From: an uncultured Pelagibacteraceae bacterium
GTDB lineage: Bacteria; Pseudomonadota; Alphaproteobacteria; Pelagibacterales; Pelagibacteraceae
Assembly: GCA_902613915.1 (NCBI GenBank)
Contig: CACMJB010000008.1
Span: 1 to 47,713, forward strand
DNA: 47,713 nucleotides
Direction of reading: 5' to 3'
The notes under the pieces are model-generated. The model saw only the letters and a program-made list of their open reading frames with translations, did no database searches and was not told where the DNA came from. Each line of letters begins with the position of its first letter. Within the stretch, counting starts at the first letter, position 1. Below are positions 3,636-30,177 of the stretch, piece by piece. The translations under genes and the position numbers were made by a program.

Positions 3636-4751
3636 TTAATTAAATAATTTTATATATTTTTTGTAGAAAGGTTTAAATGTGCCTTCTTTTATATTTTTTC
3701 TTATTTCGCGCATAAATTGTTGGTAAAAATTAATATTATGTAATGAAATAAGCATTGAAGCCAACATTTCATTGGATCTGATTAAATGATTTAAGTAACT
3801 TTTCGAATATTTATTCAAATTTCTTATAGTGCAATTTTCATCTAAAGGTGTCTTGTCATTTTGATATTGTGAATTTTTTAAATTTATCTTCCCTTCCCAA
3901 GTAAAAGCTAAACCTGTTCTGCCTGATCTTGTAGGCATTACACAATCAAACATGTCTATACCTTCATTTACAGCACCCAAAATATCTGAGGGAGTGCCTA
4001 CACCCATTAAATATCTTGGTTTATTTTTTGGTAGATAATCTACAGTTTCATTTAAGATTTTAAACATATCAGACTGTTTTTCTCCAACAGCTAGACCACC
4101 CATGGCATATCCGTTAAAATCGATATCAATTAATTTTTCTATACTCTTCATTCTTAGATCTTTAAATAAGCCACCTTGGGTTATACCAAATAAACCTTTT
4201 GATTTATCATTTCCAAACTCTATTTTGCTTCTTTTTGCCCACTTTGTAGAAACATCTATTGCTTTAGATAAAATTTTTTTATCTAAAGTTAGTTTAGGGC
4301 ATTCATCAAGAACCATTAGTATATCTGAATTTATACTTTTTTGAACTTGTATGCTTTTTTCTGGACTTAATATTATTTTTTTTCCATCTAGATGTGAAAA
4401 AAATATAGCTCCTAAATTTTCATCAATTTTATTAAACTTAGATAAGGACATTATTTGATATCCACCTGAGTCTGTAAGAACAGGCTTATTCCAATTCATA
4501 AAATTATGAATTCCATTAAATCGATTTAGTATTTCGATACCTGGCCTGAGTAAAAGATGATATGTGTTACCTAAAATAATTTGAGTGTTAGTCTTTAAAA
4601 TATCATCATTGAATACTCCTTTCACTGTACCTTGAGTACCAACTGGCATGAAAGCAGGTGTATCAATTTCTCCTCTTGAAGTATTTATTTTACCTAGGCG
4701 AGCTTTATCGTCTTGAGTAATTAACTCAAAAGAAAATTCTTTTTTGAGCAT
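3636..4751 (-). CDS. tgt: tRNA-guanine transglycosylase with degenerate zinc site
   Basis: Tgt exchanges G34 of GUN-anticodon tRNAs for preQ1 in queuosine synthesis. The protein has 371 residues, the normal length. Base-recognition and catalytic residues are all visible: TDSGGYQ with Asp94, DEC at 149-151, Gln192, GLAV at 219-222, and the nucleophile region MFDCVMPTR with Asp269. The bacterial zinc motif CxCxxC...H is broken. An ungapped alignment through LDxxC and YSxxYLxHL gives Cys307 and His338 retained, but Ile309 and Leu312 in place of the second and third cysteines. It is the last protein gene of ssb-gyrA-coaD-ppi-tgt; queA, a frequent neighbour in relatives, is not here. Either the fold is stabilised without zinc, or the site uses other ligands. 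Confidence 0.93.
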   Translation of the reverse strand: MLKKEFSFELITQDDKARLGKINTSRGEIDTPAFMPVGTQGTVKGVFNDDILKTNTQIILGNTYHLLLRPGIEILNRFNGIHNFMNWNKPVLTDSGGYQIMSLSKFNKIDENLGAIFFSHLDGKKIILSPEKSIQVQKSINSDILMVLDECPKLTLDKKILSKAIDVSTKWAKRSKIEFGNDKSKGLFGITQGGLFKDLRMKSIEKLIDIDFNGYAMGGLAVGEKQSDMFKILNETVDYLPKNKPRYLMGVGTPSDILGAVNEGIDMFDCVMPTRSGRTGLAFTWEGKINLKNSQYQNDKTPLDENCTIRNLNKYSKSYLNHLIRSNEMLASMLISLHNINFYQQFMREIRKNIKEGTFKPFYKKYIKLFN

Positions 4752-4756
4752 TTAAA

Positions 4757-5311
4757 CTATTTTGATTTTAAGGAAATTATTTTGTCAGGATCTGGAACAG
4801 CGCCACTATTAGGGTCACCTTTTTTTATCATATCAATAAATTCCATACCTTTGATTACTTTTCCAAAAGCAGAATATTGTCTATCTAAATGTGGAGCTGA
4901 GTCGAAACAAATAAAAAATTGGCTGTTAGCGCTATCAGGGTCTGCAGATCTAGCGGCAGATAAAATTCCTCTAGTGTGAGCTATATCAGTAAACTCTGCT
5001 TTTAAATTTGGCAGATCTGATCCTCCGGTGCCGGCTAAAGATAGATTAAAATCTGGACTGTTAGTGTTACCAAACTTTACATCGCCTGTTTGTGCCATGA
5101 ATCCATCTATTACTCTATGAAAAACTACTCCATCATACTTTCCAGAGTCAGCTAACTCTTTAAATCGTTTTACGTGATTAGGAGCTTTTTCTGGATAAAG
5201 TTCTATTTCAACGTCACCATAAGTTAATTTTAAAATCATAATATTTGCTTTCGCTGATAAACTAGCAGATAAACTAAAAATTAGTATAAATAAATAAAAA
5301 AATTTCTTCAT
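4757..5311 (-). CDS. Peptidyl-prolyl cis-trans isomerase, cyclophilin type, exported
   Basis: Cyclophilin-type prolyl isomerase, 184 residues. A signal peptide covers about residues 1-22 (basic start, hydrophobic core, ASLSAKA), so the enzyme is probably periplasmic. The domain shows FHRVIDGFMAQTGD, NSQFFICF and PHLDRQYSAFGKV, the canonical active-site blocks. Its ATG overlaps the coaD stop as ATGA, indicating translational coupling, and tgt follows after 5 bases. Many alphaproteobacteria have one or two cyclophilin genes at this position. Confidence 0.93.
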   Translation of the reverse strand: MKKFFYLFILIFSLSASLSAKANIMILKLTYGDVEIELYPEKAPNHVKRFKELADSGKYDGVVFHRVIDGFMAQTGDVKFGNTNSPDFNLSLAGTGGSDLPNLKAEFTDIAHTRGILSAARSADPDSANSQFFICFDSAPHLDRQYSAFGKVIKGMEFIDMIKKGDPNSGAVPDPDKIISLKSK

Positions 5312-5799
5312 AAAATTTTATTTTTTAACATTTTTACAGTTGATTTCGTCACAAATCTATTAATATTTCCTCCTAGACTTGCAATTTCTTTTACGAATTT
5401 AGAAGAAATAATTTGATTTTCAACATCTGACATTAAAAACATAGTTTCTATTTTTGAATTAAGTTTTTTATTCATTCCAGCTAATTGAAATTCATACTCA
5501 AAATCTGAAACTGCCCTTAAACCTCTGATTATAGTATTTGCTTTAAATTTTTTACAAAGATCTATTGTTAGATTGTCAAAACTAATTATTTTAATTTTTT
5601 TTTTACTTAATTTTAAATCTTTAAATAAAGAATTATTAATTATATCTAGTCTTTCATTTATTGAAAAATGATAGTGCTTATTTACATTATCTGTAGTTGC
5701 AACAATAACTCTATCAAATATATTTAATGATTTTTTAATAACATCAATATGTCCAAAAGTTATTGGATCGAAAGTTCCTGGATAAATAGCTGTATTCAT
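5308..5799 (-). CDS. coaD: Phosphopantetheine adenylyltransferase
   Basis: Transfers AMP from ATP to 4'-phosphopantetheine, the penultimate step of coenzyme A synthesis. The 163 residues match the family length. The nucleotidyltransferase motif YPGTFDPITFGHIDVI is at residues 6-21. IIRGLRAVSDFEYEFQLA and the C-terminal block IISSKFVKEIASLGG complete the signature. It abuts gyrA with no intergenic base and overlaps the cyclophilin gene by 4 bases. Confidence 0.96.
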   Translation of the reverse strand: MNTAIYPGTFDPITFGHIDVIKKSLNIFDRVIVATTDNVNKHYHFSINERLDIINNSLFKDLKLSKKKIKIISFDNLTIDLCKKFKANTIIRGLRAVSDFEYEFQLAGMNKKLNSKIETMFLMSDVENQIISSKFVKEIASLGGNINRFVTKSTVKMLKNKIL

Positions 5800-8930: not shown

Positions 8931-11810
8931 ATGTTGAAAAAAATCGTTGTAAAAGGCGCAAAAGAACACAATTTAAAAAATGTTTCTCTTGAAATACCAA
9001 AAGAGAAATTAGTTGTAATAACTGGTCTATCTGGGTCAGGTAAATCATCTTTAGCTTTTGATACAATTTACGCTGAGGGACAGCGAAGATACGTAGAAAG
9101 TCTATCATCTTATGCAAGACAATTTTTAGATAAAATGAAAAAGCCGAAAGTTGACCTTATTGAGGGATTGAGTCCGGCAATTTCAATTGAGCAAAAAAAT
9201 ACATCAAAAAATCCAAGGTCAACAGTAGCGACAGTTACAGAAATATACGACTATATGAGAGTATTGTTTGCAAGGGTTGGGATACCCTACTCACCATTCA
9301 CTGGTAAACCCATAGTTTCACAGCCTATAAGTGAGATGGTAGATAAAATTAAAAAATTACCTAAGGATAGTACTATCTATCTTTTAGCACCAATTGTTAG
9401 AGGTAGAAAAGGAGAATATAAAAAAGAAATTCTAAATTATAAAAAGCGAGGTTTCACTAAAATTAAGGTAAACGGAAAATACTTGAATATTGATGATTTT
9501 CCAAATTTAAACAAGAAATTAAAACATGAAATTTCAATAGTTGTAGATAGAGTAATTCTAAACTCAAATCTTGGAAATAGACTAGCGGATAGTGTTGAAA
9601 CAGCTGTTAATCTCTCAAACGGTTTATTGGTTGTTGAGTATGAAAATGAAACTTTACCAAAGAAATTTAGAAAGTTAGAATCTGTAACATTCTCGTCTAA
9701 GTTTTCGTGTCCAGAGAGTGGTTTTACCATAGAGGAAATTGAACCTAGACTTTTCTCTTTTAACTCACCTTATGGAGCCTGTGAAGAATGTGAAGGTATA
9801 GGTCACAGTCTTAATGTAGACCCTAACTTAGTAGTATCAGATCCAAAAAAAAGTCTTCAAGATGGCGCTATTGAACCATGGGCTAAATCTACTTCTATGT
9901 ACTATGCCCAAACATTAGCCTCTTTAGCTAAGCACTATAAAATCTCAATGAGTGATCCATGGAGAAAAATACCAAAAAAAATACAAGATGTTATTTTATT
10001 TGGATCAGATGAAGATGAAATAAAATTTTCTTACGATGATGGTTATGAAGCTTATACAACAAAAAAAACATTTGAAGGAGTCGTAAACAATTTAGAGAGA
10101 AGATATTTAGAAACTGACAGCGAGTGGAAAAGAGAAGAGATTTCACAATATCAAAGCGAAACTAATTGTGAAAAGTGCAAAGGCATGAGATTAAAAGATG
10201 AAGCTCTTTGTGTAAAAATTAATAAGTTAAATATAAGTGAAGTAACAGAAAAATCTATAGATGATGCCCAACAATGGTTTGAAAATCTTAAAAACGTATT
10301 AACAGAAAGAGAAAATAAAATTGCGCAGCACATTTTGAAAGAAATAAATGAAAGATTAAATTTTTTATTGAATGTTGGTTTGAACTATCTAACATTATCA
10401 AGAGAGTCAGGTACCTTATCAGGGGGTGAAGCTCAAAGAATTAGATTAGCATCGCAAATAGGTTCAGGTTTGACAGGTGTTCTTTATGTACTTGATGAAC
10501 CATCGATTGGTTTACATCAAAGAGATAATAAAAAACTTATTAAAGCTTTAAAAAAATTAAGAGATCTTGGAAATACTGTGATTGTTGTAGAACATGATAT
10601 TGAAACAATGGAAAATTCTGATCATATTATTGATATAGGGCCTGAAGCAGGACTAAATGGAGGTCAAATTGTTGCGGACGGATCTGTTAAACAAATAATT
10701 CAAAATCCAAAAAGTATTACTGGAGATTATTTATCTGGAAAAAAATTTATAGCTGTTCCAAAAAAACGTAGATTAGCAAAAAATGGAAGGTTTATTGAAA
10801 TAAGTGGAGCAAGTGGAAATAATTTAAAAAAAGTAAATTTAAAAATACCAGTTGGAACTTTTACTTGTGTAACTGGAGTTTCTGGAAGTGGAAAATCAAC
10901 TTTAATATTACACACTCTTTATAACGCATTTAATTTACTTTTGAATAAAAATAAAAGCCGTAAAGTTCCAAAAGCTTTTACAGGTTTTAAAGGTACAGAA
11001 TTAATTGACAAGATTATAGATATAGATCAATCCCCTATTGGACGAACGCCTAGATCGAACCCAGCTACTTACACAGGTGCATTTGGTCCGATTAGAGATT
11101 GGTTTGCGGGATTACCTGAGTCAAAAGCACGTGGATATAAAGTTGGAAGATATTCTTTTAATGTAAAAGGCGGTAGATGTGAAACATGTGAAGGAGATGG
11201 TGTGATCACTTATGAAATGCATTTTCTTCCTGATGTTTTTATACCGTGCGATACATGTAAAGGAGCTAGGTACAACAGAGAAACCTTAGAAATTAGATTC
11301 AAAAATAAAAATATAGCAGATGTTTTAGATATGACTGTTGATGAAGGATGTGAATTTTTTGAAAATATACAAAGTATTAGATCAAAGCTGATCACACTTA
11401 AACATGTAGGTTTAGGTTACATGAAAATTGGTCAACAAGCTACCACGCTATCAGGAGGTGAAGCTCAAAGAATTAAATTAGCTAAGGAATTATCAAAAAG
11501 ACCAACTGGAAGAACATTATATATTTTAGATGAGCCCACGACCGGCCTACACTCTCATGATATAAAAAAACTGTTAGAAATTCTTCAAGCTTTCGCTAAT
11601 ACTGGAAATACCGTTGTTGTGATAGAACATAATCTTGACGTTATAAAAACAGCAGATCATATAATTGATATGGGTCCTGAGGGTGGTATAAATGGTGGTA
11701 GAATTATAGCTGAAGGTACTCCTGAAAAAGTGGCTGAGGTAAAAGAGAGTTTTACTGGTAAATTTCTTAAAGAAATCATGGGTGATAACTCAATGAAAAA
11801 AACTGCCTAA
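8931..11810 (+). CDS. uvrA: Excinuclease ABC subunit A
   Basis: Damage-recognition ATPase of nucleotide excision repair, 959 residues with two ABC modules. Walker A GLSGSGKS is at 32-39 and a second copy VSGSGKST lies in the C-terminal half. Two signatures LSGGEAQRI and the switch blocks [13 protein letters not shown] and [13 protein letters not shown] are present. The second zinc module is intact (CETC ... CDTC). The first begins CPES rather than CPxC, losing one cysteine, while its partner CEEC is kept; I recall this as common in alphaproteobacterial UvrA. The start is followed directly by the conserved [15 protein letters not shown]; no clear Shine-Dalgarno is seen in the A-rich leader. 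Confidence 0.98.
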
Positions 11811-30101: not shown

Positions 30102-30177
30102 TCCTCGGTAGCTCAGTTGGTAGAGCAGTTGACTGTTAATCAATTGGTCGCAGGTTCGAGTCCTGCCCGAGGAGCCA
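30102..30177 (+). tRNA. tRNA-Asn (anticodon GTT)
   Basis: Cloverleaf with acceptor TCCTCGG/CCGAGGA, anticodon loop CTGTTAA closed by TTGA/TCAA, and T-loop GTTCGAGTC. Discriminator G and encoded CCA. This is a GUN tRNA and therefore a potential Tgt substrate. Only one base separates its end from the stop codon of the convergent Cro/CI regulator gene. Confidence 0.97.

Follow-up and report, generated by a model that had tools for sequence, protein, structure and literature searches.

The tgt Locus and Its Zinc-Site Residues

The window, by which we mean the whole 47,713-nucleotide stretch of DNA analyzed here from an uncultured Pelagibacteraceae bacterium, contains a gene run that, with names given by reading the translations, is ordered gyrA-like, coaD-like, peptidyl-prolyl isomerase-like, and tgt. 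The tgt product scores 474.2 bits against TIGR00430 (Q_tRNA_tgt), over the curated equivalog cut-off of 306.75, and 480.5 bits against PF01702; the window genome (a 1.0 Mb draft in 21 contigs) has one tgt copy. The features of the locus are as follows:

3636–4751, minus strand: tgt, tRNA-guanine(34) transglycosylase, zinc-less variant, 371 residues (TIGR00430, PF01702, AlphaFold model)
4757–5799, minus strand: upstream neighbors in the same direction, a peptidyl-prolyl isomerase-like ORF and a coaD-like ORF (names from translations)
4470–4472, minus strand: Asp94 codon, equivalent to the general acid/base Asp102 of Z. mobilis (Asp in 308/308 distinct Tgts)
4299–4307, minus strand: Asp149-Glu150-Cys151, base-recognition residues (Asp149 in 308/308; Cys151 in 98/98 of the family)
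4176–4178, minus strand: Gln192 codon (Gln in 308/308)
4080–4100, minus strand: GGLAVGE loop (residues 218–224), preQ1-type pocket (pocket reading from passages of PMC10723273)
3945–3947, minus strand: Asp269 codon, equivalent to the nucleophile Asp280 of Z. mobilis (Asp in 308/308)
3831–3833, minus strand: Cys307 codon TGC, first zinc Cys position (sequence; Z. mobilis Tgt alignment)
3825–3827, minus strand: Ile309 codon ATA, second zinc Cys position, lost (sequence; alignments)
3816–3818, minus strand: Leu312 codon TTG, third zinc Cys position, lost (sequence; alignments)
3738–3740, minus strand: His338 codon CAT, distal zinc His position, kept in the window Tgt (sequence; column counts)

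From the LD..C stretch to the distal His, the window Tgt aligns with Z. mobilis Tgt without a gap (phmmer), which places Cys307, Ile309, Leu312, and His338 at the positions usually occupied by Cys, Cys, Cys, and His. The same four residues had been assigned by ungapped alignment in an earlier sequence-only reading, and both phmmer and the codons confirm them; its statement that two of the four ligands are lost is true of the window Tgt, while some relatives have lost three or four. The three-Cys-one-His zinc set is thus incomplete in the window Tgt (C/I/L/H), and all four ligands occur together in 0/98 distinct family members. Asp94, Asp149, Cys151, Gln192, the GLAV loop, and Asp269 are all retained, as that reading had noted, and the preQ1-type pocket (Asp156, Cys158, Gln203, and GGLAV in Z. 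mobilis) is intact in the form of D149, C151, Q192, and residues 218–222. Judged from its sequence, both the ancestry and the active site of the window gene product are those of a Tgt, and we file it as a zinc-less variant rather than as a zinc-type enzyme.

Zinc Ligands in SAR11 Tgt Proteins

A tgt match was found in 120/169 genomes of the genus, and in 14/14 of those with a completeness of 90% or more and a contamination of 5% or less, with one copy each. The family and order samples, which overlap, gave 243/297 and 177/197 genomes, respectively, or 119/127 and 141/149 at the same quality thresholds; a match was absent from 8/127 and 8/149 of these more complete genomes, again in overlapping samples. 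We read 101 Tgt loci of the family (98 distinct proteins), some taken from the best matches and some picked across genera, and 29 loci of the sister family (27 distinct proteins).

The 47 distinct Tgts that we read in the genus all combine C307 and L312 with a hydrophobic residue at 309, and position 338 is occupied by His in 40 and by Asn in seven. Across the family, two ligands remain in 69 of the 98 distinct proteins, one in 16, and none in 13, with more than two in 0; by single position, Cys307 is present in 66/98, His338 in 75/98, and Asn338 in 23/98. The sister family has the motif S.N..C..H in 27/27 distinct Tgts, such that Cys312 and His338 remain and the full site is found in none. 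Loci L166–L172, titled Pelagibacteraceae, nest inside the family on the Tgt tree, and L181, with the same title, has the sister-family motif; this placement and this motif tie the family and the sister family to SAR11. The active site is invariant by comparison: D94, D149, Q192, and D269 are present in 98/98 family Tgts, as are C151 and, in the GGLAV loop, G219, A221, and V222. In a separate case, the Tgt of L147, from a 1.2 Mb alphaproteobacterial genome, lacks one residue in its zinc knuckle, which the multiple alignment shows as WS-H.

An alignment of SAR11 Tgts had been proposed as the check for a local error, and an intact CxCxxC occurs in 0/101 family loci read. An assembly or sequencing error, for which nothing was found in favor (the window genome being a draft in 21 contigs), is ruled out for practical purposes, since like substitutions recur across many independent genomes.

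No Newly Conserved Cys/His Column in the Window's Family

The sequence-only reading had left two alternatives, a zinc-free lineage or structural metal binding that had moved. In the window's family, seven Cys/His columns are conserved at 70% or more, and each is also conserved in zinc-type Tgts; there is no newly conserved Cys/His column, which leaves moved metal binding unsupported and rules out a relocated Cys/His site in this family. Conserved Cys/His columns that fall short of 70% in the zinc-type group are C175 (all members), H246 (85%), and H26 (70%) in the sister family, and H279 (75%) and H296 (80%) in the remaining zinc-less rows. These extra columns of both groups probably reflect shared ancestry.

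A metal might still be bound, either by Cys307 and His338 with a further contribution from water, the backbone, or a third side chain, or at a site elsewhere. The leftover residues are frequent enough to keep this idea in view (Cys307 in 66/98 and His338 in 75/98 in the family; Cys312 and His338 in 27/27 in the sister family), the window Tgt's own Cys307 and His338 could bind a metal weakly, and the sister family has its conserved C175 and H246, missing from the zinc-type group. However, 13/98 family members have no ligand at all, the remaining pair varies by lineage, and the window's family has gained no conserved Cys or His, all of which make retained metal binding unlikely. The zinc-free alternative is the one that we favor, on sequence grounds.

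Selection, Predicted Fold, and Probable Activity

Among 22 sequence pairs, 12 have a whole-gene dS below 0.9, and in these the whole-gene dN/dS is 0.035–0.091. For residues ∼296–345 it is 0–0.11 in the same 12 pairs, with a regional dS of up to 1.7 in one pair. These values argue against relaxed selection and bear out the earlier view that the gene is not in general decay.

The AlphaFold model of the window Tgt, the structural check that had been suggested, predicts that the fold is kept (pLDDT 95.1, pTM 0.93; blocks 301–320 at 93 and 94). It superimposes on the zinc-type structure 1pud with a Foldseek TM of 0.96 and a VIA-align Z of 55.3 (rmsd 1.3 Å, 367 residues), consistent with the TIM-barrel Tgt fold, although its input alignment (A2) included zinc-type relatives and AlphaFold may give the family fold even for a protein not holding that fold. 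As a control, L170, a zero-ligand Pelagibacteraceae Tgt, was modeled with 21 zinc-less sequences only; the model has a pLDDT of 90.0 (87 and 92 for blocks 301–320), forms a short helix over residues 309–314, and reaches a TM of 0.94 to 1pud. The control is partial, in that the training data of AlphaFold presumably included zinc-type Tgt structures. The dimer was inspected through residues only: Y319 and H322, equivalent to Y330 and H333 of Z. mobilis, which we take to be dimer-interface hot spots, are present in 98/98 family Tgts. Mutants of Y330 and H333 occur among the titles of the structure matches.

Genetic evidence bearing on activity comes from Sinorhizobium meliloti, the Tgt of which, in a record labeled strain Ak57 plasmid pSymB, reads S.C..T..N and is zinc-less. 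According to passages of PMC3568095, insertion mutants of tgt (SMc01206) lose the HeLa-cell effect and are defective in nitrogen fixation, preQ1 rescues queC and queF mutants but not tgt mutants, and a queA mutant has little symbiotic defect. The mutants described there are of strain 1021, with complementation given for queF only, while the sequence used here is that of Ak57; zinc is not a subject of these passages. A zinc-less Tgt with mutant phenotypes of this kind implies, by analogy, that zinc-less Tgt is very probably active.

That the gene is decaying, or that Tgt persists as a non-catalytic leftover, could be suspected from the missing tgt match in some relatives and from the zinc residues, which published work describes as highly conserved (passages of PMC4425180). 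The dN/dS values rule out decay; the catalytic residues present in 98/98 family members, the single tgt copy in each of the 14/14 genus genomes at least 90% complete, and the retention of a precursor transporter in 80/84 family genomes likewise leave very little room for either version.

Recurrent Loss of the Zinc Site beyond SAR11

Of 80 named loci, 22 are zinc-less, comprising eight Pelagibacteraceae and 14 others that include Phenylobacterium, Mesorhizobium, Rhizobium, Caulobacter, Xanthobacter, Brucella rhizosphaerae, and an Acetobacteraceae; one of the 14, L183, titled ‘uncultured bacterium’, groups with alphaproteobacterial rows on the tree. Judged by locus titles, the full site is found in Gemmobacter, Paracoccus, Pseudooceanicola, other Rhodobacter relatives, and sphingomonads, and in all 32 loci titled outside Alphaproteobacteria (with Magnetococcales included there); L217 was scored as a full site according to the multiple alignment. 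The class controls were 80 stretches chosen among the ∼150 best-scoring matches listed, of 347 matching genomes among 385. Outside the order, 12/57 family codes have a non-intact site, one of them with three ligands, a count that reflects best-scoring matches and not a class-wide frequency. In 30 loci of the order of G441 (G441 included) the motif is S.C..A, and position 338 is Ile, Asn, or Ser.

Over the 308 distinct Tgts (316 loci minus two short rows, L123 and L124, and six identical-protein loci), four ligands are kept in 124, three in one, two in 109, one in 61, and none in 13, such that three-ligand forms are rare, while D94, D149, Q192, and D269 are present in 308/308, zinc-type or not. 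The sole three-ligand form, L274 (C.C..L..H), is a possible intermediate of zinc loss. The losses are lineage specific (C.I..L, V.K..L, V.C..S, S.N..C, and S.C..A), and leftover ligands that differ among lineages would be expected of residues that bind nothing. On a 227-row Tgt tree built with the zinc columns left out, the zinc state changes at least ten times. This number is an undirected parsimony minimum, and the tree, a quick one, leaves 69/223 inner branches open and has rows of uneven composition. Taken at the level of sequence, the loss of the zinc site is real, recurrent, and family-wide in all loci read, with the rest of Tgt intact.

The occurrence of the trait in rhizobia and caulobacters also bears on its cause: open-ocean zinc scarcity alone is no explanation and is ruled out as the sole cause, because Rhizobium, Mesorhizobium, and Caulobacter are zinc-less too.

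A different kind of variation is seen in the pocket of four zinc-type Tgts, where Cys151 is replaced by Leu (three sphingomonads) or Val (a Blastopirellula-titled locus) in L199, L202, L210, and L233, which may reflect a possible change of base preference.

Queuosine Pathway Context and the Final Wobble Base

Two further features, the second of them in the window itself, concern the supply of the base and the tRNA substrate:

L255 and G000:C2:58728-59138: transporter for queuosine precursors in the window genome (PF02592)
30102–30177, plus strand: tRNA-Asn(GTT), Tgt substrate type, anticodon loop CTGTTAA (U33-G34-U35)

QueA is present in 0/84 genomes of the family and in 41/53 of the sister family, where the 84/53 split of 137 genomes is taken from the transporter listing drawn the same way; QueG is present in 0/28 and 25/30 genomes, respectively. 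These queuosine-finishing steps are sharply lost inside the order, with the sister family keeping them and the sampled family genomes lacking them. QueF reaches its cut-off in 0/58 genomes, and matches below the cut-off, in 56/58, are perhaps GTP cyclohydrolase I. The precursor transporter PF02592 occurs in 80/84 family and 38/53 sister-family genomes, with one in the window genome. At gathering scores, Rfam gave no match in four stretches around the transporter, including 7 kb of the window genome. With QueA and QueG missing from the sampled genomes and the transporter mostly kept, the SAR11 family probably imports preQ1 and leaves it as the final wobble base.

Salvage of preQ1 in Pelagibacter has already been proposed by Quaiyum and others, and loss of preQ1 synthesis genes is reported for Pelagibacteraceae (both in passages of PMC10723273). 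A passage of the same paper, which states that the analyzed alphaproteobacteria except Bartonella harbored tgt, queA, and queG, disagrees with the counts given here and with the paper's own section 6.

QueA adjoins tgt in G365, G370, and G376, the sister-family genomes whose coordinates were compared, and in S. meliloti queA and tgt are SMc01207 and SMc01206 (passages of PMC3568095). The order in a Sinorhizobium locus (L246), coaD-ppi-ppi-(unlisted gap)-tgt, resembles that of the window, and by analogy queA may have been lost from the SAR11 gene run.

Given that the classical product, queuosine, is not makeable by the known route in the family (QueA 0/84, QueG 0/28), Tgt could instead have changed its job in SAR11 to another base or RNA, with the zinc subdomain reshaped accordingly. 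This we regard as very unlikely: the preQ1-type pocket residues G219, A221, V222, and C151 are present in 98/98 family Tgts, and the sister family is also zinc-less yet has QueA in 41/53 genomes, such that the two losses are not tied. The same comparison (zinc-less Tgts in 27/27) rules out that loss of zinc followed from loss of QueA.

Proposed Mechanism and Relation to Known Systems

We propose, with a probability of roughly 0.8 based on sequences and models, that the window gene encodes a true bacterial Tgt that is now independent of structural zinc and that probably works with imported preQ1 as the final base. Its catalytic Asp pair, preQ1 pocket, and dimer hot-spot residues are retained, as is the barrel in the predicted fold, and the small C-terminal subdomain, normally stapled by zinc, would be held by ordinary packing, with Ile and Leu in place of Cys and presumably no bound metal. 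Such an enzyme would exchange G34 of GUN tRNAs for preQ1, which, with the queuosine-finishing enzymes gone and the precursor transporter remaining, would be imported and stay as the final base.

In comparison with zinc-type Tgts (Z. mobilis 1pud, E. coli), the window Tgt shares the whole-length predicted fold, the catalytic residues, the preQ1-type pocket, and the dimer Tyr/His, but it lacks the structural zinc site, having Ile309 and Leu312 where these have Cys. Passages of the literature describe TGT as requiring zinc for activity (E. coli Tgt, PMC9508795, citing Chong 1995) and name the zinc-binding domain as a hallmark of Tgt (PMC6165067). In line with the sequence-only reading, which knew of no described zinc-less catalytic bacterial Tgt, we found no report of a zinc-less Tgt in open-licence PubMed Central text.

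The Tgt plus QPTR salvage system of Bartonella henselae resembles that of SAR11 in having tgt and a transporter without QueA and QueG, and a GGLAVG pocket (passages of PMC10723273 and PMC11570991). Complementation of an E. coli queDF tgt mutant by B. henselae Tgt is reported with preQ1 at levels as low as 10 nM (passages of PMC10723273), and the journal version of the same work calls it partial (passages of PMC11570991). The word zinc has no occurrence in the main text of either version, and the zinc state of the Bartonella Tgt can only be guessed at from its Rhizobiales relatives. The S. meliloti Tgt is, like that of the window, zinc-less, and it is genetically required in published work; S. 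meliloti differs in its full queuosine pathway (passages of PMC3568095) and in other substitutions at the zinc positions. Ribosomal protein S4 likewise has zinc and non-zinc forms in one family; its forms are reportedly shared by horizontal transfer (PMC3087516), whereas in Tgt the change is repeated within one enzyme.

Elsewhere in the window (8931–11810, plus strand), a UvrA-like protein has CPES in its first zinc module. In E. coli UvrA this module reads CxxC, and the UvrA-like protein may be another zinc protein in which a ligand has changed.

Implications

In the queuosine pathway, FolE1, QueD, QueC, and TGT are listed as zinc dependent and QueE, QueG, and QueH as iron dependent (passages of PMC9508795), and on the SAR11 route to the modification all of these metal-dependent steps would be gone. 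More broadly, and with somewhat less than even confidence, we suggest a SAR11 wobble pathway without known metal-dependent steps, in which preQ1 is imported, inserted by a metal-free Tgt, and left as the final base, metal independence having evolved several times in Alphaproteobacteria with zinc as a replaceable staple. A zinc-less Tgt recurring in SAR11 and in genera of rhizobia and caulobacters would mean that the metal is a structural staple open to replacement, and these enzymes would supply a natural set of zinc-site replacements. The finding may also bear on Tgt as a drug target, as dimer-interface residues sit in the zinc-binding domain (passages of PMC4425180). For SAR11 itself, the prediction is that its tRNAs would end at preQ1, reached without the listed metal-dependent steps of queuosine synthesis.
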